Assembly: GCA_025059775.1 (NCBI GenBank)
Contig: JANXCW010000003.1
Span: 1-64,000, forward strand
Source of the DNA: Armatimonadota bacterium
Lineage (GTDB): Bacteria > Sysuimicrobiota > Sysuimicrobiia > Sysuimicrobiales > Sysuimicrobiaceae
Direction: 5' to 3'
DNA length: 64,000 nucleotides
Below, in pieces: positions 1 through 21,614 of the stretch. The number at the start of each line of letters is the position of its first letter. Position 1 is the first letter of the stretch. Under the pieces are notes generated by a model, which was not told where the DNA came from, ran no database searches, and was given only the letters and a program-made list of their open reading frames with translations. The translations under genes were made by a program, and so were the position numbers.

Positions 1-132
1 CCGGAGGCCATCACCCTGGTGGTGGCGGGGGCTCGGAACGCGGGGGTGTCCACCGTCTGCCCCACCTTCGCCTGGCAGACGGTCACGCGTGGCATTCCAA
101 AGGCCCGGGCACGTGAGGAGCCCAGGGGGTGA
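1..132 (+). CDS. UGSC-partner domain protein, C-terminal end only (cut by window start)
   Basis: Frame 1 is open from the first base to a TGA at 130-132. Its first 75 bases are identical to bases 6803-6877 of the intact partner gene at 5870-6916, and the peptide contains the same NAGVSTVCPTFAWQTVTR segment. After that the tail diverges (GIPKAREEPRG-like instead of RIPAKRS) and runs six bases short of the next start. It is therefore the end of another copy of the UGSC-partner protein whose body lies upstream of the window. Whether that copy was fused to a UGSC domain cannot be seen. The function of the domain is unknown. Confidence 0.8.
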   Translation, partial: PEAITLVVAGARNAGVSTVCPTFAWQTVTRGIPKARAREEPRG

Positions 133-137: not shown

Positions 138-1238
138 ATGCGGAAGATGGTCGGGTTGGCCGTTGGGGTGGCTCTGGCTGCTCTGCTTGTCGCTCAAGGA
201 GTAGTGAGCTTAGCGGGCCCTGCGGAGCGGCCCCAGCGGGGAGGGGTGCTGAGGGTGGCGGACGAGCCCGCGGGAGGGCCCTTCGGGGTCCCGTGGATCA
301 TGCCGGTGTTCGGCATCATCGCCGCCATGCCCGTCTACGAAGCTCCCGTGTGGGTGGACGCGTACAACCGGGTCCTGCCCAGGCTTGCGGAGCAGTGAGA
401 GGTGGCTCCGGACCGCAAAGCCCTTCTCCTCCGGCTGCGGCGCGGCGTCCAGTCCCACGACGGCACGGAGATGACCGCGGAGGCGGTGAAGTTCAGCCTG
501 GAAGGGTATATCCAGGCGCGACGGGTACCCGCCTACATCAAATCCGTGGACGTACTGGACCGGTACACGGTGCGGGTGAACCTGGAGAAGTGGGACAACG
601 GCGTCTACATCTCCCTGAGCGCGGTTCTCATCACCTCCCCCGCCACCATTCAGCGGTTGGGCCAGGAGCGGGCGCAGTGGCAGCCCGTGGGCACGGGTCC
701 GTTCCGGATCGTGCGGTACGATCCGAACGCGTACGTGGACTACGTGCGGTTCAACCAGTACTGGGATCGGGGGAAGCCCTACCTGGACCGGTTGGAGCTG
801 CGGTTCATCCGGGACGAGCAGACGCGGAAAGCCGCCCTCCTGGCGCATCAGCTGGACATCGCGGGGTTCGGGGATCCCCAGATCATCGCGGAGCTCCGGG
901 ACACGGGAAGATTGCATCTGATCACGGGTCCTCCGGGCGCTGGAATCCTGATGATCATCCCGGACAGCGCGAACCCGGATTCCCCCTTTGCGGATCGGCG
1001 GGTTCGGGAAGCCTTGGCGTATGCGGTGGATCGGGATACCATCGCCCGCGCCCTCGGGCGCGGAAACTGGCGCCCGTGGAATCAGATCGCACACCCCCAG
1101 AGCCCCGCTGCCCTCCGGGATCTTCGGGAGTCCACCTACAACCCCGCGCGGGCAAAGGAGCTGCTGGCCCAGGCGGGATATCCCAACGGGTTCAGCACCC
1201 GGATCATCAAAGCCTTTTACCTGGAGCGGGACATCTAG
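138..1238 (+). pseudogene. Decayed family-5 solute-binding protein gene (nonsense mutation plus 3' truncation)
   Basis: The ATG at 138 starts a signal-peptide-bearing protein nearly identical over long stretches to the intact solute-binding protein at 6973-8508 (shared RGGVLRVADEP and PFGVPWIMPVFGIIAAMPVYE). At 396-398 the frame is cut by TGA where the intact copy has TGG (Trp, in AERWEV). The frame then stays open to 1238, where it ends in LERDI about 150 residues before the normal C-terminus. No hairpin follows the TGA and the homolog has Trp, so this is a nonsense mutation and not a selenocysteine codon. The gene cannot make a full periplasmic binding protein. Confidence 0.88.
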
Positions 1239-1293: not shown

Positions 1294-2304
1294 ATGAGGT
1301 ACCGATGGCACGTGGGGGGGATGGTGTTGGCCCTCCTCGGCCTGGTACAGACGCCCGCCCTGATGGCGCAGGCGGACGCGGTGCGGGCGGCCCGGCAGGA
1401 GGGGAAGGTGGTTGTGTACGTGGCCATGCGGGAACCCATTTTCAACGTGGTCAAGAAAATCTACGAGGGCCGATACGGGGTGCCGGTGGAGGAGTGGAGG
1501 AGCTCCGCAAGCGGAATCCTGGATCGGGTTCTCACGGAGACCCGGGTGGGCCGCTGGCTGTTTGACGTGGCGGAGGGTACCACGGAGACCATGCAGGTGT
1601 TACGGGATGCAGGAGCCATCGGTCGGGGACCGTGGCCCCCCATCGAGGGGCTCACGATCGCATGGCGGGATCCTACCATTCCTCCTCCCTACCGGGTCAT
1701 CGCGGACGCGGTGATCTACAACCCGCGGCTGGTGCCGGCTGCGGAGGTGCCCCGATCGTACCTTGACCTCATCGATCCGAAATGGCGGGGAAAGATCGTA
1801 ATGGCAGATCCCCAGCGGAACGTGACCATCGCCCTCTGGCTGCACTGGCTCCGGACCGTGCTGGGGAGGGATTACGACCGGTTCCTCCGGGGATTCGCGG
1901 AACAGAGCCCTGCCTTCGTGGGATCCGATCCCCTGGTCCCTCCTAAGGTGATCAGCGGGGAATACCCCCTGGGGATCACCCTGCTGCACTACGTCCCTCT
2001 CTTCCGGGCCCAGGGGGCTCCCATCGACTATGCGCGGATCAACCCCATGATGGCCGTGGGAGCGCACTTCGCCGTGAGCGCCCGACCTCCGCATCCCAAC
2101 GCGGCGAGGCTTCTTATGGAGACGCTCCACTCCCGGGCCACGCTCCTGGCCCTCGCCCAGGAAGGGGAGGTGGTCCTGGTACGGGGCGTGAAGCCGCCCA
2201 TCCCCGATTTCGAGCAGATCCGGTTCCAGGTGGCGCAGCCGCTTGGCGGAGAGCAACTGCGGGAGTGGCGGCGCGAGCTGGAGAGGGTGTTTGCCCGGCG
2301 GTAG
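1294..2304 (+). CDS. ABC transporter extracellular solute-binding protein, Fe(III)/family-1 type
   Basis: A 336-residue periplasmic binding protein. The N-terminus (about residues 1-26) is a type I signal peptide with no lipobox Cys. The mature part begins with the KVVVYVAM strand typical of the FbpA/AfuA group and keeps the VIYNPRLVP and YLDLIDPKWRGKIVM region found in iron/putrescine/thiamine binders. The ATG at 1294 follows GGGAGGG. A permease (2338) and an ATPase (4191) complete a classical importer in the same direction. The substrate cannot be told from sequence; Fe(III) is the family default, but the conserved tyrosine ligands were not verified. The three genes are wedged between two copies of the UGSC-partner/binding-protein block. 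Confidence 0.85.
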   Translation: MRYRWHVGGMVLALLGLVQTPALMAQADAVRAARQEGKVVVYVAMREPIFNVVKKIYEGRYGVPVEEWRSSASGILDRVLTETRVGRWLFDVAEGTTETMQVLRDAGAIGRGPWPPIEGLTIAWRDPTIPPPYRVIADAVIYNPRLVPAAEVPRSYLDLIDPKWRGKIVMADPQRNVTIALWLHWLRTVLGRDYDRFLRGFAEQSPAFVGSDPLVPPKVISGEYPLGITLLHYVPLFRAQGAPIDYARINPMMAVGAHFAVSARPPHPNAARLLMETLHSRATLLALAQEGEVVLVRGVKPPIPDFEQIRFQVAQPLGGEQLREWRRELERVFARR

Positions 2305-2337
2305 TCGGGGAGGAACCCTGCGGCGAAGCGCACCGGC

Positions 2338-4053
2338 ATGAACGGGCGGACGCTGGTACTGCCGCGTCCCTGGACCCGGGTGGAGACGGCCACATGGGTG
2401 GCCGTAGCTACGGGGATTCTCGTGGCCTTTCTCACCCTGTACCCCACGGTCATGCTCTTCTACGGAAGCGTGAGCGATGCGCCTCTGGGACTTGCGGGGC
2501 ATTGGACCACGGCGCACTACCGGGAAGCCTACACGGATCCGGACACGTACCGGATCCTGGCGAACTCTCTCCTCTTTGCCTCCGGGGCGACGGCGTTCTC
2601 CATGCTTCTAGCGACGGTCCTCGCCTGGATCACGGTGCGGACCAATGCGCCGGGCAGGCACCTATTTGAGCTCATCGGCCTGGCCCCCAACGTGATCCCC
2701 CGGTTTCTCGTGGCCACCTCGTGGAGCCTGGTGCTGAGCCCCCGCATCGGACTTCTCAACCGGGGGGTGTTACAGCCCCTCGGGCTCCCCCCCCTGAACG
2801 GGTACTCCCTGGGAGGCATGATGTTTGTGGAAGGGTTGGTGCTCACGCCCCTCGCCTTCCTTATCCTCTCCGCGGCGTTGCGTGCCATGGATCCGGCCCT
2901 GGAGGAAGCAGGGCGGATGGCGGGCTCCGGGGTGCTGGACGTGACCCGCCGGGTGACCATCCCCGTCATGGCTCCTGCGGTTCTAGGCACGGCCACCCTG
3001 AACTTCGCGCGAGCCATCGAGAGCCTCGATATCCCCGTGGTCCTGGGGATGCCGGTGGGAATCGAGGTCCTAAGCACGAAGATCTTCCGAGAGGCCCTGG
3101 CAACCCTTCCGCCTAACCACAACCTCGCGGCCACGTATGCGGTCGGCCAGCTCGTCATGACCCTCACCCTGGTAGGAATTTACCGGAAGCTGACCGCCCT
3201 CTCGGAACGGTATGCCACCATCACGGGACGCGGATACCGACCCCGGGTGATCAACCTGGGACCGTGGCGGTACCTGGCCTCCGGGTTGGCGCTGGGAATC
3301 CTCGGCCTATTGGTGGTGGTGCCCCTGGCGGTCTTGGTGTACGTCTCCTTGGTTCCCTACTACCAGGTGCCGACCTGGGAGGTGCTGGGCCAGCTGACGC
3401 TGCGGCACTACGGGTTCCTCCTCCAAAGCAACCGCGTGGCCCGCGCCCTTCAGGTGAGCCTCACCCTGGCCCTGGGCGGGGCCACCGTGGCCATGCTCCT
3501 CGCCTCCCTGGTGGCGTACTTCACCGTCCACCGGAGGATGCGGCTCAGCGGGGTATTGGAGGGGCTCTCCTTCGTGCCCTGGGCCTTTCCCGGAACGGCC
3601 CTGGCGGTGGGGCTGCTGTGGGCCTACGCACAGCTCCCCCTGCCCATCTACGGGACTCTGTGGATCCTGCTCATCAGCTACGTCACCCGGTTTCTCCCCT
3701 ACGGCCTCAGGGCCATGACCTCTACCATGGTGCAGGTACACCGGGAACTGGAGGAGTCCTCAAGGGTCTGCGGAGCGGGATTCTGGGGCACCTTCCGGAA
3801 GATCCTCCTACCCCTGGTGCGGCCCGGATTCCTGGCGGGCTGGGCCATCCTCTTCACCATTTACATCCAGGAGTTCAGCACCTCCGTTCTCCTGTACACC
3901 CCGCGTGCGGAACCCGTGGGCCCCTTGCTGTTCCACCTGTGGGAGGACGGGCAGGTAGGGGATATGGCGGCGCTGGGGATCGTGGTGAGCGTCCTGTGTG
4001 TGGTCGTGGTGGCCGCGGCACGCCGATGGATGCGCGAGCCTACCGCTCCCTAG
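2338..4053 (+). CDS. Fe(III)-type ABC transporter permease, double-domain
   Basis: A 571-residue inner-membrane protein with about twelve hydrophobic segments arranged as two BPD_transp_1 halves, the FbpB/ThiP architecture. Each half has an EAA loop for contact with the ATPase: around residues 185-212 (LEEAGRMAGSGVLDVTRR) and around 468-495 (ELEESSRVCGAGFWGTFRK). The internal duplication means one chain can form the whole channel. It starts 33 bases after the binding protein and should pair with the ATPase at 4191. The substrate follows that of the binding protein and is unknown. Confidence 0.9.
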   Translation: MNGRTLVLPRPWTRVETATWVAVATGILVAFLTLYPTVMLFYGSVSDAPLGLAGHWTTAHYREAYTDPDTYRILANSLLFASGATAFSMLLATVLAWITVRTNAPGRHLFELIGLAPNVIPRFLVATSWSLVLSPRIGLLNRGVLQPLGLPPLNGYSLGGMMFVEGLVLTPLAFLILSAALRAMDPALEEAGRMAGSGVLDVTRRVTIPVMAPAVLGTATLNFARAIESLDIPVVLGMPVGIEVLSTKIFREALATLPPNHNLAATYAVGQLVMTLTLVGIYRKLTALSERYATITGRGYRPRVINLGPWRYLASGLALGILGLLVVVPLAVLVYVSLVPYYQVPTWEVLGQLTLRHYGFLLQSNRVARALQVSLTLALGGATVAMLLASLVAYFTVHRRMRLSGVLEGLSFVPWAFPGTALAVGLLWAYAQLPLPIYGTLWILLISYVTRFLPYGLRAMTSTMVQVHRELEESSRVCGAGFWGTFRKILLPLVRPGFLAGWAILFTIYIQEFSTSVLLYTPRAEPVGPLLFHLWEDGQVGDMAALGIVVSVLCVVVVAAARRWMREPTAP

Positions 4054-4054
4054 C

Positions 4055-4093
4055 GCCCCGAGGCCCTGGCATGGGGTTCGGCCGAGTCGGGGC
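4055..4093 (+). terminator. GC-rich hairpin after the permease gene (possible terminator or attenuator)
   Basis: Directly after the permease stop, GCCCCGAGGCC (4055-4065) can pair with GGCCGAGTCGGGGC (4080-4093), leaving a small internal asymmetry and a loop of about 14 bases. No T-run follows, so it is at best an imperfect intrinsic terminator or an mRNA stabilising structure. It is placed so that it could lower expression of the downstream ATPase gene relative to the binding protein. Confidence 0.3.
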
Positions 4094-4190
4094 GAAATGG
4101 TCGGCCGTGTCGGGGAACCGCCCGCCGGGTTCGAAACTGTCCTGCGCGGCACGGTGGACGGGTGGAGGATATATTTTAAGGTTGGGGTGA

Positions 4191-5312
4191 TTGGCTGTGG
4201 CCTCCATCCGGTTGATCTCCCTGCGGAAGGTGTTTGAGTTCCGGGGACAACTGGTCCGAGCCGTGGACGACGTGACCCTGGAGGCTCCGGAGGGAAAGAT
4301 CTTGACCCTGTTGGGGCCCAGTGGGTGTGGGAAGACCACAGTGCTGCGGTGCATGGCGGGGTTGGAGCGTCCCGACGATGGGGAGATCTGGTTCGGGGAT
4401 CGATTGGTCTTCAGCCGGTCACAAGGGGTCTATGTACCCCCTGAGCGCCGGAACATCGGGATGGTGTTCCAGTCGTATGCCATCTGGCCTCATCTGACGG
4501 TGTTCGAAAACGTGGCGTATCCCTTGCGGGTGCGGCGCTTGTCTGCTCAGGAGATCCGGAAACGGGTGGAGGCGGCGTTGGAGCTGGTGGGATTGGGAGG
4601 ACTGGCGGACCGCCCTGCGCCCCTTCTCAGTGGTGGACAGCAGCAGCGGGTAGCCCTGGCGCGGGCACTGGTGTACGAGCCACAGGTTCTGCTGTTGGAC
4701 GAACCCCTCAGCAATCTGGATGCGAAGGTACGGGAGCAGGTGCGGGAGGAGCTGCGGGGGCTGCAGCGGAAGCTGGGGATCACCACGGTCTATGTAACGC
4801 ACGACCAGGTGGAGGCGCTGTCCCTGTCGGACGTGGTGGCGGTGATGCGGGAAGGGAGGATAGAGGAAGTGGGGACCCCGCAGCAGCTCTACGAGCGGCC
4901 GCAGACCCGGTTCGTGGCGGAGTTCGTGGGGACCACGAACCTGCTCTTAGGGCGCCTGATAGCGGCGAACGGACAGGTAGGTGTGGTGGAGACAGAATGC
5001 GGGCGGCTCCAGGTGCGGCTGGAGGGGATGGACGTACCGCGGGGCGAGCGGGTGTGGGTGGGGATTCGACCGGAGCACGTGGTGGTGGAGTCGCAGCCGA
5101 CGGGGGAGGCGAACGTAGTGACGGGAAGGGTCCAGTCCGCCCTGTTCGAGGGGACGGTAATGCGGTACCGGATTGCCGTGGGGGAGGGGAAAGCGACCCT
5201 GATGGCGTACGGGAGGCCGGGCTGGCGGCCTGAGGAGACCGTCTACCTCCAGCTGGATCCGCGGCGGATCCTCCTCCTGCGCGATCGGTTCCCGGACGCG
5301 GCGAAGAGCTAG
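4191..5312 (+). CDS. ABC transporter ATP-binding protein, FbpC/PotA type with TOBE domain
   Basis: A 373-residue ATPase with Walker A GPSGCGKTT (about residues 42-50), Q-loop, signature LSGGQQQR (about 145), Walker B LLLDEP (about 167) and the H-loop THDQ (about 203). The C-terminal third (about 240-370) is a TOBE/regulatory extension as in Fe(III), spermidine and maltose importers. The start used is TTG 4191; GTG 4197 is an equally plausible start two codons later. It lies 137 bases after the permease and very probably energises it. The UGSC gene begins 24 bases downstream, so the two may be co-transcribed. Confidence 0.9.
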   Translation: MAVASIRLISLRKVFEFRGQLVRAVDDVTLEAPEGKILTLLGPSGCGKTTVLRCMAGLERPDDGEIWFGDRLVFSRSQGVYVPPERRNIGMVFQSYAIWPHLTVFENVAYPLRVRRLSAQEIRKRVEAALELVGLGGLADRPAPLLSGGQQQRVALARALVYEPQVLLLDEPLSNLDAKVREQVREELRGLQRKLGITTVYVTHDQVEALSLSDVVAVMREGRIEEVGTPQQLYERPQTRFVAEFVGTTNLLLGRLIAANGQVGVVETECGRLQVRLEGMDVPRGERVWVGIRPEHVVVESQPTGEANVVTGRVQSALFEGTVMRYRIAVGEGKATLMAYGRPGWRPEETVYLQLDPRRILLLRDRFPDAAKS

Positions 5313-5336: not shown

Positions 5337-5873
5337 ATGGCGGTGCTGGTGGATCCCACAGGAGGGACCGTGGAGATCACGCGGCGCATGGCCCCACGGG
5401 GCGGTCGGACCCTGCGGGGAGCACGGGTGGGGCTTGTGGACAACGGTAAGCGAAACGCGGACATCTTCCTCCAGGCCCTGGGGACCCTCCTCCGGGAGCG
5501 GTATGGGGTAAGCGAGGTGGTGCCGCGGCGTAAGCCGCACTTTGCGGTCCCTGTAAGCCCGGAGCTGGTGGAGGAGTTGAGCGCTCAGTGCGACTTCGTG
5601 ATCCCCGGGGTGGGGGACTGAGGGTCCTGTAGCGCGGCCAGTGTGGCCGACGGCATCCTGTTCGAGGAGCGGGGGATCCCGGCCGCCGCGGTGATCACGG
5701 ATGCCTTCCGGCGTACCGCGGATGCCATGGCCAGGACCCAGGGGTTGGAAGGGTATCCGTACGTGGCCATTCCGCACCCCATCAGCAGCCTCTCCCCGGA
5801 GGAGCTGAGGATGCGGGCGGAGCAGGCCCTTCCGGAAGTGGTGCGGCTGTTACAGGAGGAGGTGAAGGGATGA
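5337..5873 (+). CDS. UGSC family selenoprotein, stand-alone (TGA read as Sec at residue 95)
   Basis: The frame from ATG 5337 (after AGGGAGGTGAGGAGG) is open to 5873 except for TGA at 5619-5621. Reading TGA as selenocysteine gives 178 residues with GVGD-U-GSC-SAASVADGILF at the interruption. The UGSC (seleno)protein family is known to have U or C at this place within a GD[U/C]GSC motif, so the TGA falls on the expected redox residue. The N-terminal half carries the family features LRGARVGLVDNGKRNAD and VVPRRKPH, and the part after TGA continues the fold (IPAAAVITDAFRR, AIPHPIS). A hairpin follows at 5635-5649. The stop overlaps the partner gene start by four bases (ATGA). The reaction is unknown; the U-x-x-C arrangement suggests thiol/selenol redox chemistry. 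Without Sec insertion only a 94-residue fragment would form. Confidence 0.85.
5619..5649 (+). promoter_or_regulatory. UGA(Sec) codon and bacterial SECIS-like hairpin, copy 1
   Basis: TGA at 5619-5621 is followed by CGGCC (5635-5639), loop AGTGT (5640-5644) and GGCCG (5645-5649): five perfect pairs. The apical loop begins 18 bases after the codon and has G as its second base. Bacterial SECIS elements lie inside the coding region close behind UGA and present a G early in the apical loop to SelB, so distance and loop agree. No covariance test was possible. The stem could partly reflect GC-rich coding sequence. Confidence 0.6.
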
Positions 5874-6916
5874 GCCGGGGTGTGGTGGCGGAGCCGACCC
5901 GGGAGGCGGTGCGGGGCGCCCGGGAGGCCATTGAGTACTGCTACGAGCGGGGGTGGACGGACGGGTTGCCCGTGGTTCCCCCCGCAGAGGAGTTCGTAGA
6001 AGAGTTCCTGGCGCAGGTGGACCGGGACCCGGAGGAGGTGGTGTTTGCGCAGGAACACCTGGGCCGGAAGTGCACCGTGCGCCTTGCCGCAGCGAACGCG
6101 GTCATGGCGGGGTGCAGGCCGGAGTACTTCCCCGTGGTGCTGGCGATGCTGGAGGCGGTTCGGGACCTGCCGGTGAGCCGGGGGCTGTTCCAGAGCACCA
6201 CCGGGCAAGCGGTGCTGGTGGTGCTCAACGGTCCCATCCGGCAGGAGCTGGGGTTTAACGGTTCCGACAACGTCTTCAGCCCCGGGGACCGGGCCAACGC
6301 CACCGTGGGGCGAGCCCTGCGGCTGGTGATCATGAACGCCTTGGGGATCCGTCCCCATGCCTTCGATCAGAGCACCCAGGGTACTCCCGCCAAGTACAGC
6401 TTCTGCATCGCGGAGAACGAGGAGGAAAGCCCCTGGGAGCCCCTGCACGTGGAGCGGGGGTTTGGCAAGGAGGAGAGCACGGTGACGGTGGCTTGGGCAA
6501 GGGGGACCATGCCCGTAGAGCAGCGGGACTCCAAGCAGCCCGAACACATCCTCCTCAATATCGCGGACTCCATGTCCTACGGAGGGGGGTACTTTCCCTC
6601 ACCCCGGGGGCACGGGTCCATCGTGGTGATGGGGCCGGAGCATGCGCAGCTGATCGCCCAGGCGGGGTGGAGCAAGCGGCAGGTGCGGGAGTTCCTGTGG
6701 GAGCACTTCGGCCGTCGGGCGGGGGAGCTGCGGCGGCTGGCGAAGGATGGGGGTCTGGACCCGGATCTCAGCGATGCGGCCTTCGTGCGGTTCGCCTCCG
6801 GGCCGGAGGCCATCACCCTGGTGGTGGCGGGGGCTCGGAACGCGGGGGTGTCCACCGTCTGCCCCACCTTCGCCTGGCAAACGGTCACCCGCCGGATCCC
6901 GGCAAAGCGGAGCTGA
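5870..6916 (+). CDS. UGSC-partner protein (stand-alone version of the UGSC C-terminal domain)
   Basis: A 348-residue soluble protein with no signal peptide, starting at ATG 5870 inside the last codons of the UGSC gene, so translation is coupled. It is homologous to the C-terminal three quarters of the fused proteins at 16446 and 18146: shared GWTDGLPxVPP near the N-terminus, NAVMAG, VVLNGPIR/VVVNGPVR, SPGDRANA/SPGNMANA and NEEESPWEPLHVE. Thirty-four bases around that last motif are identical to the fused gene at 17575. I do not recognise a catalytic signature or known fold. The split/fused relationship says it works in a complex with the UGSC selenoprotein. The best description is an uncharacterised obligate partner of UGSC. 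Confidence 0.8.
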   Translation: MSRGVVAEPTREAVRGAREAIEYCYERGWTDGLPVVPPAEEFVEEFLAQVDRDPEEVVFAQEHLGRKCTVRLAAANAVMAGCRPEYFPVVLAMLEAVRDLPVSRGLFQSTTGQAVLVVLNGPIRQELGFNGSDNVFSPGDRANATVGRALRLVIMNALGIRPHAFDQSTQGTPAKYSFCIAENEEESPWEPLHVERGFGKEESTVTVAWARGTMPVEQRDSKQPEHILLNIADSMSYGGGYFPSPRGHGSIVVMGPEHAQLIAQAGWSKRQVREFLWEHFGRRAGELRRLAKDGGLDPDLSDAAFVRFASGPEAITLVVAGARNAGVSTVCPTFAWQTVTRRIPAKRS

Positions 6917-6972
6917 GGTGGATGCATCGGCTGCGCGGTGAAGGGAAATCTCTTCGATCAGGAGGTGAGCGG

Positions 6973-8508
6973 ATGCGCAGGCTGTGGGGACTGGCCGTGG
7001 GAGTTGCCCTGGCCGTGGTTTTGGGGGCCAGGGGGGTGCACATCGGGATCGCCGGGCCCGCGGAGCGGACCCAGCGGGGAGGGGTGCTGAGGGTAGCGGA
7101 TGAACCTCCGGGAGGGCCCTTCGGGGTCCCGTGGATCATGCCGGTGTTCGGCATCATCGCCGCCATGCCCGTCTACGAGACCCTGCTGTGGGTGGACGCG
7201 TACGGCCGGGTCTCACCGAGGCTTGCGGAGCGGTGGGAGGTGGCTCCGGACCGCAAAGCCCTCCTCCTCCGGCTGCGGCGCGGCGCCCAGTTCCACGACG
7301 GCACGGAGATGACCGCGGAGGCGGTGAAGTTCAGTCTGGAGGAGAGCATCCGGGTGCGGCGGCTACCCGCCTACATCAAATCCGTGGACGTACTGGACCG
7401 GTACACGGTGCGGGTGAACCTGGAGAAGTGGGACAACGGGGTGTTCCTGGCCCTGGGGGGATCCGCGGCCCTCATCGCTTCTCCTGCCACCATTCAGCGG
7501 TTGGGCCAGGAGCGGGCGCAGTGGCAGCCCGTGGGCACGGGTCCGTTCCGGATCGTGCGGTACGATCCGAACGCGTACGCGGACTACGTGCGATTCAACC
7601 AGTACTGGGATCAGGGGAAGCCCTACATGGATCGACTGGAGATGCGGTTCATCCGAGACGTGCAGACGTTAAAGGCAGCCTTGCTCGCGGGACAGCTGGA
7701 TGTGGCTGGATTCGGAGATCCACAGGTGATCGCGGAGCTGCGGGGTACAGGGAGGTTCCGGACCATCACGGGGCCTCCGGGAAGCGGCATCCTCATGATC
7801 GTTCCAGACAGCGCGAACGCGGACTCGCCGTTTGCGGACCGGCGGGTGCGGGAGGCGCTGGCGTATGCGGTGGACCGGGCGGCCATCGCACGGGCTCTGG
7901 GGTATGGGAACTGGGAGCCGTGGGACCAGATCGCGCATCCGGCAAGCCCCGCGGCCCTTCAGGACTACCGGGGGCCCACCTACAACCCCGCGCGGGCAAG
8001 GGAACTGTTGGCCCAGGCAGGCTATCCTAACGGCTTTGACAGCCGTCTGACGCCTGCTCCCTTCCTGCCTCGGGAGGTGGGCGTGGTGATTCAGCGGTAC
8101 CTTCGGGAAGTGGGAATCCGAACGGAGCTGGATACCCCGGAGATCGCGAGGTACGCGGAGTACCAGCGGAAGGGCTGGCGCGGTCTGCTCCTGCATTACT
8201 TTGGCTACTTCCCGAACTTCAACAACTATATTCGGTTCTACTTCACCAACTCTCCGGAAGGATTTGTGAGCATGAGGCGGCCCGAGGGACTGGACCGGTT
8301 GGTGGAGGACTCCGCCTCCACGCTCACGGTCCAGCGGCACAAAGTACAGCAGATGCATCGAGTGCTGCTCCAGGACCTCACCGTGATCCCCGTCTACCTC
8401 AGCATGCGGACGTACATCGCGCGCCCAGAAGTTCGGGACACGGGGCATCTCACCAAGGCCACCTGGCCCTACTGGGAGCCCGCGAAGGCATGGAAGGCCC
8501 GGCAGTAG
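6973..8508 (+). CDS. Family-5 (dipeptide/nickel type) ABC solute-binding protein, UGSC-linked
   Basis: A 511-residue periplasmic binding protein of the SBP_bac_5 fold. It has a signal peptide (about residues 1-28, no lipobox Cys), then RGGVLRVADEP, LAERWEVAPD, the family hallmark region LRLRRGAQFHDGTEMTAEAVKFSLE, and WQPVGTGPFRIVRYDPN. ATG 6973 lies seven bases after GGAGGTGAG. No cognate permease is adjacent, so it is an orphan binding protein that may use a transporter encoded elsewhere. It is the intact parent of the decayed copy at 138-1238. With the proteins at 15148 and 20091 it shares a G[VI]PW motif about 60 residues in, marking a subfamily that travels with UGSC genes. The ligand is unknown. 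Confidence 0.88.
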   Translation: MRRLWGLAVGVALAVVLGARGVHIGIAGPAERTQRGGVLRVADEPPGGPFGVPWIMPVFGIIAAMPVYETLLWVDAYGRVSPRLAERWEVAPDRKALLLRLRRGAQFHDGTEMTAEAVKFSLEESIRVRRLPAYIKSVDVLDRYTVRVNLEKWDNGVFLALGGSAALIASPATIQRLGQERAQWQPVGTGPFRIVRYDPNAYADYVRFNQYWDQGKPYMDRLEMRFIRDVQTLKAALLAGQLDVAGFGDPQVIAELRGTGRFRTITGPPGSGILMIVPDSANADSPFADRRVREALAYAVDRAAIARALGYGNWEPWDQIAHPASPAALQDYRGPTYNPARARELLAQAGYPNGFDSRLTPAPFLPREVGVVIQRYLREVGIRTELDTPEIARYAEYQRKGWRGLLLHYFGYFPNFNNYIRFYFTNSPEGFVSMRRPEGLDRLVEDSASTLTVQRHKVQQMHRVLLQDLTVIPVYLSMRTYIARPEVRDTGHLTKATWPYWEPAKAWKARQ

Positions 8509-8542: not shown

Positions 8543-9919
8543 ATGATGGCCCATCCGGGAGCGCGGCCATCGGAGCGCCCCTACATGGTGGAGGAGGCCC
8601 GCCGGATACCCGTCTTTGGGGAGTTCGACGTGGTGGTGCTGGGTGGAGGCCCCGCGGGCATCGCCGCCGCCACGGCCGCGGGTCGGTGTGGTTGCTCCGT
8701 GGTGCTCGCGGAGCGGTACGGATTTCTCGGCGGGATGGGGACCGCAGCAGGGGTTACTACCTTCGCGGGCCTCCACGCCAATGTCTACGGGGAGCACCGG
8801 CAGGTGGTGCACGGGGTGGTGGACGATCTCCTGGCCCGGATGGAGCGCCTGGGGGGGCTCAACGCCCCGCATCTCTCCCTGGGCGGCCGTATCATGGCCC
8901 AGGCCTACGATACGGCCGCGTACAAGGTCGCCGCGGACGACCTCGTGCTGAGCGCGGGCGTGAAACTCCTCTTCCACACGTTGGGTGTTGGGGCGTTGAT
9001 GACCCATGAGCGGGAGATCGCGGCCCTGCTGGTGGAGACCAAGTCCGGACGTTTCGCCATCCGCGGACGGGTGTTCATCGATTGCTCCGGCGATGCGGAC
9101 CTCGCCGCGTGGGCGGGAGTACCGTACGAGAAGGGAGACGGCCGGGGGAAACTCCTGTATCCCACCACCATGTTCCGGATCAACGGGGTGGATCCAGAGC
9201 GGGCGGGAAGGGCCTGGGAGCTGCTTCCTCAGATCATGGAGGAGGCAGAGCGGGAGGGAAGAAGGTTCCCGCGGCGCGCTCCCATCCTGCGCCCCCAGCG
9301 GAACCCTCTGGAGTGGCGCGCCAACGTAACCCAGATCCGGCTCCCGGACGGCAGGGCGGTGGACGGGACGGATGTGGAGCAGCTGACGTATGGAGAGGTG
9401 GAGGGGCGCAGGCAGGTGTGGGCGTTCTTCGAGTTCCTCCGGGAGCGCCTTCCGGGATTTGAGAACGCTTACATCGTGGACATTGCGCCTCAGTTGGGGA
9501 TTCGGGAAACGCGGCGCATCGTGGGGGAGTACCAGCTGACGGAGGAGGATGTAGTGGGCTGCGCGAGTTTCGAGGACACCATCGGGGTAAACGGGTGGCC
9601 CGTGGAAGAACACGTGCAGGGAGATGTGGTGATCCGTTGGCCGCCCATCCCCGACTGCCGGGGCTTTCACCATCTGCCCTACCGCATCCTGCTCCCACAG
9701 AAGGTGGATAACCTCCTGGTGGCGGGGCGGTGCGCCTCCATGACCCACGGGGGGCAGTCCTCCGCCCGAGTATCCGGACCTTGCTTCGTCATGGGGCAGG
9801 CGGCAGGAACCGCCGCCGCCTTGGCCCTGCAGCTCGGTATCCCCGTGCGCCACCTGCCCGTAGCACGGCTCCAGGCGCTCCTGGAGCGGGATGGCGTCTA
9901 CCTGGGGCGGGACCTCTAA
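8543..9919 (+). CDS. FAD-dependent oxidoreductase (FAD_oxidored family)
   Basis: A 458-residue cytoplasmic flavoprotein. An N-terminal Rossmann motif VVVLGGGPAGIAAATAAGR (about residues 29-47) binds the FAD ADP moiety. It is followed by the GFLGGMGTAAGV segment typical of the FAD_oxidored group and, near the C-terminus, a second FAD contact VDNLLVAGRCASMTHGGQSS. Members of this group include FAD-linked oxidoreductases of unknown substrate often next to ABC binding proteins. ATG 8543 follows GGGAGGA. It sits 34 bases behind the UGSC-linked binding protein and is probably in its operon, so it may oxidise or reduce the imported compound. Confidence 0.85.
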   Translation: MMAHPGARPSERPYMVEEARRIPVFGEFDVVVLGGGPAGIAAATAAGRCGCSVVLAERYGFLGGMGTAAGVTTFAGLHANVYGEHRQVVHGVVDDLLARMERLGGLNAPHLSLGGRIMAQAYDTAAYKVAADDLVLSAGVKLLFHTLGVGALMTHEREIAALLVETKSGRFAIRGRVFIDCSGDADLAAWAGVPYEKGDGRGKLLYPTTMFRINGVDPERAGRAWELLPQIMEEAEREGRRFPRRAPILRPQRNPLEWRANVTQIRLPDGRAVDGTDVEQLTYGEVEGRRQVWAFFEFLRERLPGFENAYIVDIAPQLGIRETRRIVGEYQLTEEDVVGCASFEDTIGVNGWPVEEHVQGDVVIRWPPIPDCRGFHHLPYRILLPQKVDNLLVAGRCASMTHGGQSSARVSGPCFVMGQAAGTAAALALQLGIPVRHLPVARLQALLERDGVYLGRDL

Positions 9920-9940
9920 GCGGCTGCGGAAGGGGGAGCG

Positions 9941-9969
9941 CCTCCCGGCCCGCGTTGCGGGCTGGGAGG
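9941..9969 (+). terminator. Strong GC hairpin between the oxidoreductase and acyl-CoA ligase genes
   Basis: CCTCCCGGCCCGC (9941-9953), loop GTT, then GCGGGCTGGGAGG (9957-9969): thirteen pairs with a single G-U. It lies 22 bases after the upstream stop, where an operon boundary is expected. There is no T-run after it, so termination would be imperfect or factor-assisted. It separates the UGSC module from the beta-oxidation genes. Confidence 0.6.
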
Positions 9970-10012
9970 GAGGGGGGGTAAACTGGGGATCCGAGAACGG
10001 AGGTGAGTGGAA

Positions 10013-11641
10013 ATGCAGATGGTGTCGGAGTTACGCGCGAGCTTGGCGTACCCCTTGACCCTCTCCCGGGTGCTGGAGCGGATGATCCGGTACTGGGGAC
10101 ACGTGGATGTGGTGACGCGGCGGCCGGACCGCTCCTTGCACCGAACCACCTATGTGGAGCTGTACCGGCGCGCACACGCCCTGGCCCGTGCCCTGACCCG
10201 CCTGGGCATTCGGCCTGGGGATCGCGTGGCCACCCTGTGCTGGAACCACTCCATGCACATGGAGTGCTACCTCGGCGTCCCCATCACGGGAGCCATCCTG
10301 CACACCCTCAACCTGCGTCTCCACCCCAGCGATCTCGCGTACATCGTGAACCACGCGGAGGACCGCTTCCTCATCGTGGACGATGTCCTGCTCCCGTTAT
10401 TCGAGCAGTTTAAGCAGGACGTGCGGTTGGAGCGGATCTTCGTGGTTCCCTTCTCGGGGCAGCCCGCTCCCGCCCCCTACGACAGCTACGAGGAGCTCAT
10501 CCAGGGGCCCTTTGAACCCTTCCCGTACCCGGACATCCCGGAGGACAGTCCCGCCATGATGTGCTACACCTCCGGGACCACGGGGCGTCCGAAGGGGGCC
10601 ATGTACTCCCACAAAGCCATGGTGCTGGCGGCTATGGCCACCATGCTGGCCGATACCTTCGCGATTTCCCGGCGGGACACCATCCTGGCGGTGGTGCCCA
10701 TGTTCCACGTAGCTGGCTGGGTCCTGCCCTTCTCCGCGCCGCTCGCGGGCGCACGCCTGCTGCTACCGGGCCCGCATCTGGATCCCGAGAGCGTCCTGGA
10801 GCTCATCTCCTCCGAAGGGGCCACCTTCTCCGGAGGCGTACCCACCGTCTGGCTGGGGATCCTGGACGTCCTGGAGCGCAACCCGGAGAGGTATCCCCTC
10901 CGTCGGGAGCTGCGGGTGGCGGTGGGCGGTAGCGCGCCTCCGGAATCCCTCCTGAGGCGCATGAAGCGTGCCGGCATCCGACTGATCCACGGATGGGGGA
11001 TGACGGAGGTGCTCATCGGGATCCAGAGCCACCTCAAGCCCCATATGGAGAGCTGGCCCGAGGAACAGCAGATCGCTATGCAGCTCAAGCAGGGCATGCC
11101 CGTACCTCTTCTGGAGGCCCGCATTATGGGGCCCGAAGGGGAGGTTCCGCCGGACGATCGGACCATGGGGGAGCTGCAGGTCCGGGGGCCGTGGGTGGCG
11201 GGGAGCTACTTCCGCGGGGAAGCCCCAGATGCCTGGACCTCAGACGGCTGGTTCCGCACGGGGGACGTGGCCGTGTGGGATGCGGAGGGGTTCATCAAGA
11301 TCGTGGACCGTACCAAGGACCTCATTAAATCCGGGGGCGAGTGGATCAGCTCCGTGGACCTCGAGAACGCCCTCATGACCCATCCCAAGGTCAAGGAGGC
11401 CACGGTGATCGCGGTTCCCCACCCCAAGTGGATGGAGCGACCCCTGGCGGTGGTAGTACCCCGGGAAGGCGAGACGGTGACGGAGGAGGAGCTGCGGGAG
11501 TACCTGCGGCCCAAGTTCGCGAAGTGGTGGCTGCCCGATGCCTTCGTGTTTGCCACGGAAATCCCGAAGACCTCCACGGGGAAGCTGGCGAAGCTGGTGC
11601 TACGGGAACGGTTCAAGGACTGGAAGTGGCCGGAATCCTGA
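10013..11641 (+). CDS. AMP-dependent acyl-CoA synthetase (medium/long-chain fatty acid type)
   Basis: A 542-residue adenylating enzyme that converts a carboxylic acid, ATP and CoA to acyl-CoA. It has the P-loop-like YTSGTTGRPKGAMYSH (about residue 183), GWGMTE (about 327), the hinge DRTKDLIKSGGEWISSVDLE (about 432-451) and the catalytic C-terminal lysine in KTSTGKL (about 521). The length and the GEWISS hinge fit the AlkK/FadD-like subgroup. ATG 10013 is nine bases after GGAGG; an upstream GTG at 10007 would sit too close. It heads a beta-oxidation set with the genes at 11657 and 13970. Confidence 0.92.
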   Translation: MQMVSELRASLAYPLTLSRVLERMIRYWGHVDVVTRRPDRSLHRTTYVELYRRAHALARALTRLGIRPGDRVATLCWNHSMHMECYLGVPITGAILHTLNLRLHPSDLAYIVNHAEDRFLIVDDVLLPLFEQFKQDVRLERIFVVPFSGQPAPAPYDSYEELIQGPFEPFPYPDIPEDSPAMMCYTSGTTGRPKGAMYSHKAMVLAAMATMLADTFAISRRDTILAVVPMFHVAGWVLPFSAPLAGARLLLPGPHLDPESVLELISSEGATFSGGVPTVWLGILDVLERNPERYPLRRELRVAVGGSAPPESLLRRMKRAGIRLIHGWGMTEVLIGIQSHLKPHMESWPEEQQIAMQLKQGMPVPLLEARIMGPEGEVPPDDRTMGELQVRGPWVAGSYFRGEAPDAWTSDGWFRTGDVAVWDAEGFIKIVDRTKDLIKSGGEWISSVDLENALMTHPKVKEATVIAVPHPKWMERPLAVVVPREGETVTEEELREYLRPKFAKWWLPDAFVFATEIPKTSTGKLAKLVLRERFKDWKWPES

Positions 11642-16445: not shown

Positions 16446-18125
16446 ATGGCGGATCGGTACGAGGTGCTGAGCCCTGTGGGGGAGGCAGAGATTCCGGAGC
16501 CGTGGCGGATCGCACCCCGGCTGGACCGGTTGGAGGGTCGGGTGGTGGGGCTGTTTGAGAACAACAAGCGGGCGGCGCCCAGGATCCTGGAGGCGGTGGA
16601 ACGGGAGTTGAGAGCGCGTGTACCGGGGGTTCGATTCAGCCGCTTCCGGCACCCGCACAACCGGGAGCTGGTGGGGGAGGAGTTCGAGGCCTTCCGGCGG
16701 TGGGTGGAGGGAGTGGATGCGGTGGTGGGGGCGGTAGGGGACTGAGGGTCGTGCACCAAGTACTTGGTGTTCAACCTCGTGGAGGTTGAAAAACTCGGGA
16801 AGCCTGTTGCCGCCCTGTGCAACGTGGGGTTTGCACGGGATGCGCGGTCGGCGGCGATGGTGAAGGGGTGCCCGGCGCTGCGGGTGGTGCTGGAGCGGGT
16901 GCCGTGCGAGGCAACGGATGGGGAGTCCATCGCGCGGGGGGTGGCGGAGGTCATCGGGGAGGTGGTGCAGGCGCTGACGGAGCCTTTGCGGGAAGAGGAG
17001 TGGGAGGAGGCGCTCGCGCGGGCAGCGGCGTGGCAGCCTGGGGACGCCCGTGGGGTGGTGTACCGGGGGGGTTACGAGGAGGTGAACCGGTACTTCTACC
17101 GGATGGGTTGGACGGATGGGCTGCCGATCGTACCGCCCACCCCGCGGGCGGTGGAGGAGATGCTGCGGGGCACGGATCTGGATCCGGACCACGTGGTGGC
17201 GAGTTTGCCGCCGCGGGGGGGCAAGGCCACGGTGGAGAAGATCGCCATCAACGCGGTGATGGCGGGGGCGCTGCCCACGCATCTACCGGTGATCATCGCG
17301 GCGGTGGAGGCCCTGGCGGACCCGGATGCGTGGTACGGGACGTATCAGGTGAGCACGGGGTCGTGGGCGCCGTTCGTGGTGGTGAACGGACCGGTGCGGC
17401 GGGACATAGGGTTGAACTGCGGGAGCGGGGCGTTGAGCCCCGGGAACATGGCCAATGCGGCCATCGGTCGGGCGATCCGTTTGGTGGACCGGAACATCGG
17501 GGGGGTGCGGCCCGGGATCGAGGACATGGGGGTCTTTGGGAATCCTGGGAAGTACACCCTGGTGCTGGGGGAGAACGAGGAGGAAAGCCCCTGGGAGCCC
17601 CTGCACGTAGAACAGGGCTTGGAGCGGGAGGAGAGTGCGGTGAGCGTGTTCTTCCCGAACACCTATGTGCAGGCGGTGGCCATGGGGACGGATCCGGAGA
17701 GCCTGGTGCTGACCCTGGCCCGGAATGTACCGGCGGGCAAGCGGAACGCGCTGACGGCCATGCTGGTGATTCCGGACCACGCACGGATCCTAGCCCAGGC
17801 GGGGTGGTCCAAGCAGGAGGTGGTGCGCCGGGTGGTGGAGGCCGCCCGCATCCCCCGATACCGATCGCCGTACATACCTCCGGAACGGGCGGAGGGCCTG
17901 AGCCCGAAGGAGCTGCCGCGGAGGGAGGAGGACTGGATGCCCGCATGGATGGACCCGGCCCAGATCCGACTGGTGGTGACCGGGGGACCCGGCAGCTTCA
18001 TGGCCCTGTGGATCGGTTCCGGGCTCATGCCCGCCCGGTGGGTGACCAAACGCGTGCGACTGCCGAAGGCGTGGGGACGGATGGTAGTCCGCTACCGGGG
18101 AATGGTGCCCAGGTACGCGGGCTGA
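16446..18125 (+). CDS. UGSC selenoprotein fused to its partner domain, copy A (Sec at residue 100)
   Basis: From ATG 16446 (after GAGGAGGTGGAGG) the frame is open to 18125 except for TGA at 16743-16745. Read as Sec, this is a 559-residue protein. Residues 1-200 are the UGSC domain (LSPVGEAEIPEP, LDRLEGRVVGLFENNK, AVGD-U-GSC-TKYLVFNL, KPVAALCNVGF). Residues about 205-559 are the partner domain (GWTDGLPIVPP, NAVMAGALPTHLPVI, NEEESPWEPLHVE). The TGA falls on the residue expected in the UGSC family, and homology runs unbroken across it. A 16-base perfect palindrome follows it. If TGA were a stop, translation would end at 99 residues and the remaining 459 codons would have no ribosome site. It is cytoplasmic with no signal peptide; the reaction is unknown. 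Confidence 0.85.
16641..17473 (+). repeat. Mosaic near-identical repeat, upstream copy
   Basis: Three blocks match the tandem paralog almost base for base: 16641-16799 with 18329-18487 (1 mismatch in 159, spanning the UGA and hairpin), 17133-17315 with 18815-18997 (2 mismatches in 183), and 17343-17473 with 19025-19155 (2 in 131). The sequence between and outside these blocks is clearly diverged. This patchwork points to gene conversion between tandem copies, not to a recent whole-gene duplication. Confidence 0.85.
16743..16769 (+). promoter_or_regulatory. UGA(Sec) codon and SECIS-like hairpin, copy A
   Basis: TGA 16743-16745 is followed by CACCAA (16754-16759), loop GTAC (16760-16763) and TTGGTG (16764-16769), a perfect six-pair stem, with a further G-U possible outside. 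The loop begins 14 bases after the codon with G first, in keeping with bacterial SECIS elements read by SelB. The whole 16-base palindrome is conserved exactly in copy B. Its sequence is unrelated to the copy 1 hairpin at 5635 although position and shape agree. Confidence 0.65.
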
Positions 18126-18145: not shown

Positions 18146-19807
18146 ATGTACGAGGTCCTGAGCCCCGTGGGGGAAGCCGAGCTTCCGAAGCCGCAACCCA
18201 TCGCTCCCCGCCTCGATCGCCTGGAAGGACGGGTGATCGGGCTATTCGTGAACTCGAAGCCCGTGGCTCCGGTTCTCCTGGAACGGGTGGAGGAGCTGCT
18301 ACGGGAGCGGGTAGGTGCCCGCACGGAGCGCTTCCGGCACCCGCACAACCGGGAGCTGGTAGGGGAGGAGTTCGAGGCCTTCCGGCGGTGGGTGGAGGGA
18401 GTGGATGCGGTGGTGGGGGCGGTAGGGGACTGAGGGTCGTGCACCAAGTACTTGGTGTTCAACCTCGTGGAGGTTGAAAAACTCGGCAAACCCGCGGTTG
18501 CTCTCTGCAACCTGGGGTTCGTGCAGGACGCCAAGGCCTCTGCCGCGGTGCGCGGCGTGCCGGGCCTCCGCGTTGTTTCGGAGGAGATCCCCAGCGAGTG
18601 CACCAGCCGCGAGGAGATCCGGCGCGGCGTGGATCGCGTCTTCGAGCATGTTCTGTGGGCCCTTCAGGAGCCGCCCACGGACCAGGAGCTGTTCCCGGAG
18701 ACGTGGGACCTTCTGGAAGGAGGGGCGGTGGATGGCGTCGTGTACCGAGGTACCCTGGAGGAGGTGAACCGGTACTTCTACCGGCGTGGCTGGACGGATG
18801 GGTTTCCCATCCTCCCGCCCACCCCGCGGGCGGTGGAGGAGATGCTGCGGGGCACGGATTTGGATCCGGACCACGTGGTGGCGAGTTTGCCGCCGCGGGG
18901 GGGCAAGGCCACGGTGGAGAAGATCGCCGTCAACGCGGTGATGGCGGGGGCGCTGCCCACGCATCTACCGGTGATCATCGCGGCGGTGGAGGCCCTACTG
19001 GATCCCCGTACTTGGTTTGGCACCTATCAGGTGAGCACGGGGTCGTGGGCGCCGTTCGTGGTGGTGAACGGGCCGGTGCGGCGGGACATAGGGTTGAACT
19101 GCGGGAGCGGGGCGTTGAGCCCCGGGAACATGGCCAATGCGGCCATCGGCCGGGCCCTCTCCCTGGCGATCCGGAATATCGGGGGAGCACGGCCCGGGAT
19201 CGAGGACATGGGGGTATTGGGGAATCCCGGGAAGTGGTCCATGGTGGTAGGGGAGTGGGAGGAGCAGAGCCCCTGGCCTCCCCTGCACGTGGACGAGGGA
19301 CTTGCTGCTGAGCAGAGCGCGGTGAGCGTGATCTTTATGAACACCTTCGTGCAGATCCTAGGCTATGGCAGCGAACCGGAGGATCTCGTCCGTAGCTTCA
19401 CCTACAACGTTCCGCCTACGAAGAAGGACGCCACCACCGCGCTTCTGCTTCCCCCCCATCTCGCCCGGATCCTGGCGGAAAGCGGTTGGCAGAAACAGGA
19501 CGTGGTGGACTTCGTCTGGCGCTACACGCAGGTCCCGGCCTACCAACACCCGGACTGGGTGCGGGCCCGCCGGTTGGAGGAACGCCATACCCGCATCGGG
19601 ACCGTGGAGGCGCACGTGGCGGTCCAGGTGCTGAGCCGGAGGGAGGCCATCCGGGTGGTGGTGATGGGAGGGCCGGGAAACGTGATGGGGGTTGTTCTGG
19701 GAGGAGGAATCATGCCGGCCCAGTGGGTCACCCGTCCGGTGCAGCTTCCCAGAAGCTGGGGGAGGTTGGTAACGAGGTATCGGGGTGTTGTTCCAAGAAT
19801 CCGTTAG
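18146..19807 (+). CDS. UGSC selenoprotein fused to its partner domain, copy B (Sec at residue 96)
   Basis: A tandem paralog of the preceding gene: 553 residues with TGA at 18431-18433 read as Sec in AVGD-U-GSC-TKYLVFNL. ATG 18146 lies five bases after GGAGAGG and aligns with the start of copy A; an ATG at 18125 overlapping the previous stop is the alternative. The partner domain begins at about residue 200 (GWTDGFPILPPTPRAVEEML). The last third differs most from copy A (EWEEQSPWPPLHVDEGL instead of NEEESPWEPLHVE), suggesting altered substrate or partner. It is followed after 16 bases by the SelW-like gene. The function is unknown; redox chemistry is inferred from the U-x-x-C motif. Confidence 0.85.
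18329..19155 (+). repeat. Mosaic near-identical repeat, downstream copy
   Basis: Counterpart of 16641-17473, with matching blocks 18329-18487, 18815-18997 and 19025-19155. The offset changes from 1688 to 1682 between the first and second blocks, so small indels lie in the diverged part between them. Confidence 0.85.
18431..18457 (+). promoter_or_regulatory. UGA(Sec) codon and SECIS-like hairpin, copy B
   Basis: TGA 18431-18433, then CACCAA (18442-18447), loop GTAC (18448-18451) and TTGGTG (18452-18457), identical in sequence and spacing to copy A. Because the surrounding block is also nearly identical, the conservation alone does not prove selection on the hairpin. Confidence 0.65.
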
Positions 19808-19823: not shown

Positions 19824-20063
19824 ATGACCATCAGCATCGTGTACTGCAGCGAGTGCAACTACCTTCCTCAGGCCCTGGAGGTCGCCCGAGGAATCCTCGA
19901 GCGGATGGCGGACGAGATCGACGAGCTCGTGCTGGTTCCCGCCGCGGGTGGTGCCTTCGAGGTGCGCAGGGATGGCGAGCTCGTGTTCGACATGATGGTC
20001 TCCGGTGGGTTTCCAAACGTGGAAGAACTCGTCCGGAGGCTGAGCGGGAAGATCCGTTCCTAG
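19824..20063 (+). CDS. SelT/SelW/SelH (Rdx) family protein, cysteine form
   Basis: A 79-residue thioredoxin-like protein with VYCSECNYLPQALEVARGIL at residues 6-25, the Rdx C-x-x-C that is C-x-x-U in selenoprotein W. Here both codons are TGC, so this member does not need Sec. The following LVLVPAAGGAFEVRRDGELVFD and the terminal GGFPNVEELVRRLSGKI match the small SelW-like fold (G-x-FEV-x-v-n-g and the F/P helix). ATG 19824 follows GGAGGGACC. It sits between two UGSC genes and a binding protein, so it is a candidate redox partner for the UGSC proteins. That partnership is inference. Confidence 0.85.
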   Translation: MTISIVYCSECNYLPQALEVARGILERMADEIDELVLVPAAGGAFEVRRDGELVFDMMVSGGFPNVEELVRRLSGKIRS

Positions 20064-20090
20064 CCACCGGGGAGCGTGGGAGGGGAAGGA

Positions 20091-21614
20091 ATGGCAAAAG
20101 GATTTCGACTGCATCCTCTTCGGACGTTCCTCCTCCTCGGGCTCGCAGGCCTGCTGCTGGCCGGGGTGTGGAACGTATCCGCGGGTCCTGCCCCCACGCG
20201 GGGAGGTGTGCTGCGGATTCGGGACGAGGCTCCCGCGGGCATCATCGGAATCCCCTGGGAGATCATCACCACAGGTGTGCTGTGGGCGAACCCCGCCTTT
20301 GAGTCCCTCACCCGCATGGATGCACGGGGACGGATGTTCCCGCACCTCGCGGTGCGGTGGGAGGTGGATCGCCAGAATCGGGCCGTGGTTTACCACCTCC
20401 GTGAGGGCGTGCGGTTCCACGACGGCTCCGTCATGGATGCGGACGTGGTGGCGTGGAACCTCAACCAGGAGATCGCGAAGGGACGGGTCCCGGGCCGCCG
20501 GGCGGTGGCCGCAGGTCCCACCACGGTGCGGGTGGAGATGGATCGGTGGGATAACCGCATCTGGGAGGTTCTCTCCGTCACCAGCGGGTTCATCGCCTCC
20601 CAGCGGTTCATCGAACAGAACGGGGTAGAAGCAGCGCGTTGGCGGCCCGTGGGGACCGGGCCCTTCCAGCTGGAACGGGTGGAGCATCCTGTCCGCATTC
20701 GGTACACGCGATTTCCGAACTACTGGCAGCGGGGGCTTCCGTATCTGGACGCGGTGGAGATCCTCAGCATCCCGGATCCCCAGACCTCTGCGGCGGCGTT
20801 CCTCGCCCGCCAGGTGGATATTTTGGGCATGGATGCGAACGAGGTGGTGCAGCGGCTCGTGGATCAGGGGTATCCCGTGGACGTGGGGACTTCCTCTGTC
20901 CTTGCCATTCTTCCCGATAGCGCCACGCCCAGTTCCCCCTTCCGGGACCGGCGGGTACGCGAGGCGTTGAGCTTGGCGCTGGATCGGGAGGCTCTTGCCC
21001 GGCTCAGAGGATTTGGCCTGAACGAGCCGGCGAAACAGTTGGCCTCCAGGGAGTCCTTGGCATACAGCGCGGACCTAGAAACCTATGGCGCGTACAGCAC
21101 CCAGCGGGCCCGGGAGCTGCTCCAGGCGGCCGGATACCCGGAAGGGTTTGAGACGCGCCTGATCGTGAACCCGCGGGTGGATCGGGATACGGCGGTGGCG
21201 ATTCAGGGCATGCTGCGGGCGGCGGGAATTCGGGTGGAGCTGGAGTTCCCCCCCATCGGCCGGTACGCGGAGTACCAGCTGCGTGGGTGGCGGGGACTCA
21301 TCATGCATCCGCTGGTGCACGCGGTGAACTTCGCGAATGTGGTGCGCCTGTACCTGTTCGGGGAGTTCACCTTCGCAAGTGTGGACAAGCCGGAAACGGT
21401 GAAGCAGGCCATGGAGGAAGCCCTCTCCACCGCGCGCCTGGAACGGCACAAGCTGCAGAAGCTACACCGAATACTCCTCCAGGACCGGACCATGATCCCC
21501 GTGATGGTTCTGAAGCGGGCGTATGTGCGCCACCCCTATGTCCGAGACAACGGCCACATGCGGTGGGTCACCTGGGCGCACTGGACTCCCGAGCGGACCT
21601 GGATCGCCCGGTGA
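20091..21614 (+). CDS. Family-5 ABC solute-binding protein, UGSC-linked paralog
   Basis: A 507-residue periplasmic binding protein with a signal peptide (about 1-32, no lipobox Cys), RGGVLRIRDEAPAG, the subfamily GIPWEIITTG motif, YHLREGVRFHDGSVMDADVVAWNL and WRPVGTGPFQLERVEHP. ATG 20091 follows GGAGGGGAAGGA; an upstream GTG at 20076 has no spaced ribosome site. It is related to but clearly diverged from 6973-8508. No permease is nearby. It directly follows the UGSC/Rdx genes and is followed by a GMC oxidoreductase, giving the order UGSC-UGSC-Rdx-binding protein-flavoprotein. This parallels UGSC-partner-binding protein-flavoprotein at 5337-9919. Confidence 0.87.
   Translation: MAKGFRLHPLRTFLLLGLAGLLLAGVWNVSAGPAPTRGGVLRIRDEAPAGIIGIPWEIITTGVLWANPAFESLTRMDARGRMFPHLAVRWEVDRQNRAVVYHLREGVRFHDGSVMDADVVAWNLNQEIAKGRVPGRRAVAAGPTTVRVEMDRWDNRIWEVLSVTSGFIASQRFIEQNGVEAARWRPVGTGPFQLERVEHPVRIRYTRFPNYWQRGLPYLDAVEILSIPDPQTSAAAFLARQVDILGMDANEVVQRLVDQGYPVDVGTSSVLAILPDSATPSSPFRDRRVREALSLALDREALARLRGFGLNEPAKQLASRESLAYSADLETYGAYSTQRARELLQAAGYPEGFETRLIVNPRVDRDTAVAIQGMLRAAGIRVELEFPPIGRYAEYQLRGWRGLIMHPLVHAVNFANVVRLYLFGEFTFASVDKPETVKQAMEEALSTARLERHKLQKLHRILLQDRTMIPVMVLKRAYVRHPYVRDNGHMRWVTWAHWTPERTWIAR

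Follow-up and report, generated by a model that had tools for sequence, protein, structure and literature searches.

Split and fused forms of a UGSC-family selenoprotein, related to the selenocysteine end of GrdB, and its partner protein

The DNA analysed here, 64,000 nucleotides from an Armatimonadota bacterium (contig JANXCW010000003.1, positions 1 to 64,000; hereafter the window), carries three UGSC-family selenoprotein domains on the plus strand, one encoded by a gene of its own and two joined in a single chain to a second, larger domain, here called the partner. Specifically, the split form consists of a UGSC gene at 5337..5873 (PF24696, E 3.5e-61), in which the selenocysteine (Sec) codon, TGA at 5619-5621, lies within the motif GDUGSC, and a gene at 5870..6916 encoding a partner of 348 amino acids, the ATG of which, at 5870, overlaps the TGA stop of the UGSC gene (5871-5873) as ATGA. 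The fused forms are found at 16446..18125 (fusion 1; Sec codon TGA 16743-16745; PF24696 E 1.4e-30) and 18146..19807 (fusion 2; Sec codon TGA 18431-18433; PF24696 E 2.8e-32); they are 69% identical to one another, and an alternative in-frame ATG start of fusion 2, at 18125, would place the two genes in a TGATG overlap. All three UGSC regions are members of PF24696, with Sec in GDUGSC and scores of 206.7, 107.1 and 112.6 bits against a curated cut-off of 25, while the fused copies score 76 and 83.9 bits with NF041046, below its equivalog cut-off of 125. The split and fused partners of the window are likewise homologous (43% identity over 258 aa, E 1e-67). A preliminary description of this DNA had recognized two overlapping genes at 5337-6916 and the same two domains in one chain at 16446 and 18146; the reading frames agree with the former statement, and domain searches and homology with the latter. 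Its label of a two-component system is misleading, as neither a histidine kinase nor a response regulator is involved.

The models PF24696 and NF041046 span the UGSC domain alone, and the partner is absent from the libraries searched: it has no Pfam or NCBIfam match at E<=1, comparison by sequence with solved structures returned chance matches only, and a search of a viral fold library returned no match. The partner motifs GWTDG, NAVMAG and SPWEPLHV are kept in distant relatives, and an AF2 model of the split-form partner reached a pLDDT of 88.6. The partner represents an uncatalogued family, the fold of which is weakly matched in the PDB. Within the genome to which the window belongs (2.35 Mb, 99% complete) there are six UGSC genes, all with TGA and each adjoined by a partner or a piece of one.

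The same genome encodes a tRNA-Sec (79.5 bits; cut-off 47) that adjoins selB. Compared with shuffled sequences, the 47 nt after the TGA showed only a moderate gain in folding energy (z -0.8 for the split gene and -2.4 for the fused genes), so that the assignment of Sec rests instead on homology, on conservation of the TGA, and on the presence of this machinery. Among 92 UGSC-partner pairs, the Sec column holds U in 83, Met in four, Ala in three and Cys in two, and the residue at position +3 is Cys in 74 of the U forms (UxxC in 74/92) and Ser in 9/83. Ala or Met at the Sec site, with Cys kept at +3, characterizes a supported clade of six proteins, which comprises fused chains (L033:4377-6047, L034:3343-5040, L044:2314-3972, L045:323-1981 and L065:4407-6065) and one split or interrupted form (L060:2476-3024). 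Sec is therefore not indispensable in every member of the family.

Across bacteria and archaea, the UGSC domain and the partner are associated, either as neighbouring genes or as a fused chain. In a survey of 251 Chloroflexota genomes, of the kind that the preliminary description had proposed, the partner was present in all of those with UGSC (26/26) and in one partner-only genome besides, giving UGSC in 26, the partner in 27 and both in 26 (Fisher p ~2e-34, computed over genomes that are not fully independent); a partner widespread without UGSC, which would have spoken against the proposed link, was not observed. Similarly, among 43 genomes of the window's own phylum, UGSC was found in 6, the partner in 7 and both in 6, and the one partner-only genome has its partner at a contig end. 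When a single Chloroflexota MAG (G056) is set aside, a partner lies within 700 nt of 54 of 61 UGSC genes. A set of 80 loci, fetched by a query consisting of the partner only, gave 111 partner matches: 49 fused behind UGSC, 31 split with UGSC first, 20 split in the reverse order, 1 in the same frame in reverse order, and 10 without UGSC within 2 kb, some of which sit at contig ends. Solo partners within long contigs do occur (L049, L072, L079, two in G153, and one in G196, at G196:C42), and the genome G147 has the partner without UGSC; together with the Ala/Met clade, these cases make "obligate", as applied earlier to the predicted complex, an overstatement. In one further locus (L094:1914-6131), four partner genes stand in tandem, with a single UGSC gene 2.6 kb off.

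A tree built from the partner domains of the 92 pairs requires no fewer than 8 changes between the fused and the split state, 4 of which follow necessarily from branches with good support, and no fewer than 7 changes of gene order. Both fused copies of the window belong to an all-fused clade of 21 members, and the split copy, elsewhere in the tree, is sister of an acidobacterial split pair. Given this separation, the copies of the window represent old parallel lineages, and their difference in architecture does not go back to genes split or joined recently in this genome. Distances among UGSC domains correlate with those among partners, with a Mantel r of 0.84 overall and, within one genome, of 0.78 for its 21 pairs and 0.76 for its 10 split pairs. 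Restriction to a single genome removes the effect of the species tree but not that of co-duplication, and the distances could also correlate because the two genes were duplicated together, even if their products do not touch.

Structure prediction of the fused protein, which had been put forward as a check, gave one rigid unit when AF2 was run with 120 rows (pLDDT 95.4, pTM 0.94); as the larger domain makes up about two thirds of the chain of 180+360 aa, we infer from this pTM that the two domains are placed confidently relative to one another. The Rosetta-stone link drawn in the preliminary description is borne out by the near-perfect co-occurrence and adjacency of the two proteins, and by the finding that repeated fusion and shifts of gene order leave their association intact. 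With the rigid model of the fused chain, these observations support well the conclusion that UGSC and partner very probably constitute one functional unit, and a direct physical complex between them is likely.

In the UGSC half of the model, strands and helices alternate and Sec directly follows a strand. Foldseek matches to this half, at modest E-values, were lumazine-synthase-like and other Rossmann/flavodoxin-like folds, no thioredoxin being among the top 50, and on this basis a Trx-like fold for UGSC was rejected. These results bear upon the 2008 view of UGSC as a thioredoxin-like UxxC oxidoreductase acting on or through the partner, which drew on a "likely Trx-like fold" (PMC2398784) and with which the frequency of UxxC in the pairs (74/92) and a SelW-like gene behind fusion 2 are consistent. 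Such a role appears unlikely, however, given not only the fold of the model but also homology that points to GrdB (see below), Ser at +3 in nine Sec members, replacement of Sec by Ala or Met in seven, and the lack of conservation of the SelW-like neighbour.

The best PDB match of the partner model is the alpha subunit of class I fumarate hydratase (E 2.8e-5), followed by cyclic amide hydrolases (Toblerone fold), but with TM-scores of 0.2-0.3 this is a weak match of folds and serves as a lead only. Residues conserved in the partner among the 92 pairs are D31, N76, N120, R148, E182, E184 and H193, while its best Cys columns are conserved to 75% and 61%; unlike fumarase, to which it has no sequence match, the partner does not conserve the cysteines of an iron-sulphur cluster, and that site is hence unmatched. 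The conserved acidic, Asn, Arg and His residues could be read as the main active site of a non-redox lyase, hydratase or isomerase, to which the Sec or Cys of UGSC would contribute a nucleophile or base. Retention of both domains in the Ala/Met variants and the CoA-linked lyase/hydratase genes found among some neighbours are in keeping with such an enzyme, for which the fumarase match is the structural argument; considering how low the TM-scores are and that the iron-sulphur site has no counterpart, we regard it as rather improbable.

Comparison of profiles shows homology between UGSC and the C-terminal part of GrdB, in which the Sec of that protein lies. NCBIfam searches with the fused UGSC chains gave sub-threshold matches to GrdB, GrdF and GrdH (E 0.01-0.17), and GRDB genes from UGSC-bearing genomes, when TGA is read through, encode the stretch ...AVILTSTUGTCTRCGA... 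at their Sec site. Alignment of the UGSC and GRDB profiles with hhalign had a probability of 96.4% (E 1.3e-9, 98 columns) and placed Sec on Sec, against a baseline probability of 0.1-0.3% for unrelated profile pairs. The homology is limited to about 100 C-terminal residues of GrdB: full-length PF07355 (347 positions) has no match in the UGSC chains of the window, and the window's own genome is without a GRDB match in a search that was positive in other genomes. GrdB/PrdB (PF07355) and GrdE/PrdA (PF09338), the latter found adjoining GRDB genes, likewise combine a Sec protein with a larger partner, with UGTC in place of UGSC; they differ from the pair described here in that most of GrdB is absent from UGSC and that GrdE and the partner are unrelated. 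The overall layout thus resembles that of GrdB and GrdE, with only the Sec end common by descent. Two possible origins of the partner were rejected by profile comparison, namely kinship with GrdE/PrdA (probability 0.1% against GrdE) and kinship with GrdB or UGSC themselves. Also widespread are short GRDB-C-like selenoproteins that have the motif UPxC and, in some cases, additional domains at the C terminus (L107-L126, e.g., L111:1201-1884 and L119:712-1851); they carry Sec at the same place as UGSC (hhalign 85.7%), but are far closer to GrdB (99.9%) than UGSC is.

The genomic context of the window modules is rich in genes for solute import. Directly upstream of the split pair, on the same strand, is an ABC transporter (1294..5312) composed of a binding protein (1294-2304), a permease (2338-4053) and an ATPase (4191-5312), and directly downstream is an SBP_bac_5 gene (6955..8508, +; PF00496, E 5.9e-69). 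Fusion 2 is followed directly by the SelW-like gene (Rdx, CxxC; 19824..20063, +; PF10262, E 8e-20) and, beyond it, by another SBP_bac_5 gene (20076..21614, +; PF00496, E 4.1e-57). The SelW-like gene was considered as a conserved redox partner and rejected, being absent near other modules. Between the split and the fused modules, at 8543-15130, lie genes for an FAD oxidoreductase (PF12831), an acyl-CoA ligase, a hydroxyacyl-CoA dehydrogenase and a thiolase, likely a catabolic island. At its start the contig cuts into a further partner gene, the C-terminal end of which occupies 1..132 (+), followed by an SBP_bac_5-like gene (138..1238, +) that is probably a pseudogene: a TGA at 396-398 replaces the Trp of its paralogue, and the frame ends early at a second point. 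Other contig ends of this genome (G000 C28, C29 and C18) also fall inside partner genes; at these points the assembly was probably interrupted by partner copies almost identical to one another.

Solute-binding genes also adjoin modules outside the window. Of 105 modules in the 80 loci, 24 have an SBP_bac_5 gene and 13 a TctC gene no more than 400 nt away on the same strand; DctP-type genes adjoin some modules elsewhere. In 400 kb of MAG G056, SBP_bac_5 lies within 500 nt of 38/53 modules and accounts for 47/72 adjacent ORFs compared with 25/85 non-adjacent ones, among which it is common as well (p 1e-5). Further neighbours include CoA-transferases, enoyl-CoA hydratases, dehydrogenases and glycyl-radical enzymes, PFL-like genes of the last kind standing beside modules at L033:6074-10232, L040:55-2517, L067:1425-3923 and L141:8335-10761. 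The solute-binding genes make import of small solutes the best clue that context provides. That the pair should do no more than bind an imported ligand or metal, as a sensor or carrier without turnover, would fit these genes and the very many paralogues in one MAG, but is very unlikely in view of the strongly conserved polar residues and Sec, which suggest catalysis, the catabolic neighbours, and the lack of any DNA-binding or signalling domain.

Homology to GrdB and the adjoining solute-binding genes lead us to propose GrdB-like selenol chemistry on imported solutes. In glycine-reductase-type enzymes, a carbon of the substrate is presumed to be the target of the selenolate (PMC10298544), and the GrdB/GrdE-like proteins FarB/FarE are proposed to cleave the C-F bond of fluoroacetate (PMC10838667). 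By analogy, a small organic solute would be supplied by a dedicated binding protein of the SBP_bac_5, TctC or DctP type and enter a pocket whose shape and substrate specificity come from the partner, which would occupy the position of GrdE/PrdA, though it is an unrelated protein. As in the reductases of glycine, betaine and proline, a leaving group would then be displaced through attack by the UGSC selenolate on an electrophilic substrate carbon. Se in turn would be attacked by the UxxC thiol at +3, a step that would free the reduced product and leave an Se-S bond for a cellular thiol system to reduce. Judging from the relation to GrdB, covalent binding of the substrate may fall to the Sec half itself; a substrate site on the partner, which the preliminary description had considered probable, is conjectural. 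Nucleophilic selenol chemistry of this type is a credible possibility that falls slightly short of an even chance, and the explanation as a whole, in which UGSC and partner are the halves of one cytoplasmic enzyme with a GrdB-like mechanism, we judge to be evenly balanced between right and wrong.

UGSC is among the commonest selenoprotein families of aquatic metagenomes, with 255 sequences in the GOS data, and a fusion termed UGSC/Unknown_1 was reported from the GOS selenoproteome in 2008 (PMC2398784). That fusion, described from a few aquatic organisms with a Trx-like fold assumed (PMC2398784), is of the same kind as those of the window, joining UGSC to a conserved domain of unknown function, and Unknown_1 is very likely the partner described here. 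The pairing seen in the present analysis differs in being wide, reciprocal, order-changing and related to GrdB. Neither the relation to GrdB nor the mutual co-occurrence of the two families, the changes of gene order, the clade without Sec or the expansion detailed below was found in the literature examined, an incomplete selection beyond which work by Haft and colleagues (2023, 2025) may hold some of these points. With a fixed partner and a kinship to the active end of GrdB, this "unknown redox protein" becomes the subject of an enzyme hypothesis that experiments can address.

An extreme expansion of the family was encountered in the Chloroflexota MAG G056 (JACPQD01; loci L031, L035, L039 and L140-L159), where UGSC has at least 127 matches and the partner at least 150, both being lower bounds set by how many candidates were scored. 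The largest bacterial selenoproteomes published comprise 57 and 63 genes for selenoproteins (PMC13188914), and the UGSC count of this MAG is thus more than twice the higher figure; the expansion, if it holds, would reset the known upper limit of bacterial selenoproteome size. Tentatively, and with greater reserve than for the chemistry itself, the system may be a previously unrecognized class of Sec-dependent enzymes that unites GrdB-like chemistry with a new partner and, with more than 100 copies and their own solute-binding proteins, would form a broad catabolic toolkit in some Chloroflexota. The source is a MAG, in which single 350-kb contigs hold dozens of copies, and the 400 kb already mentioned were picked for their density of matches. 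Within these 400 kb there are 61 distinct UGSC domains, of which 60 contain a single TGA with GxC after it; the partners number 62, of which 39 are fused, 20 split and 3 solo.
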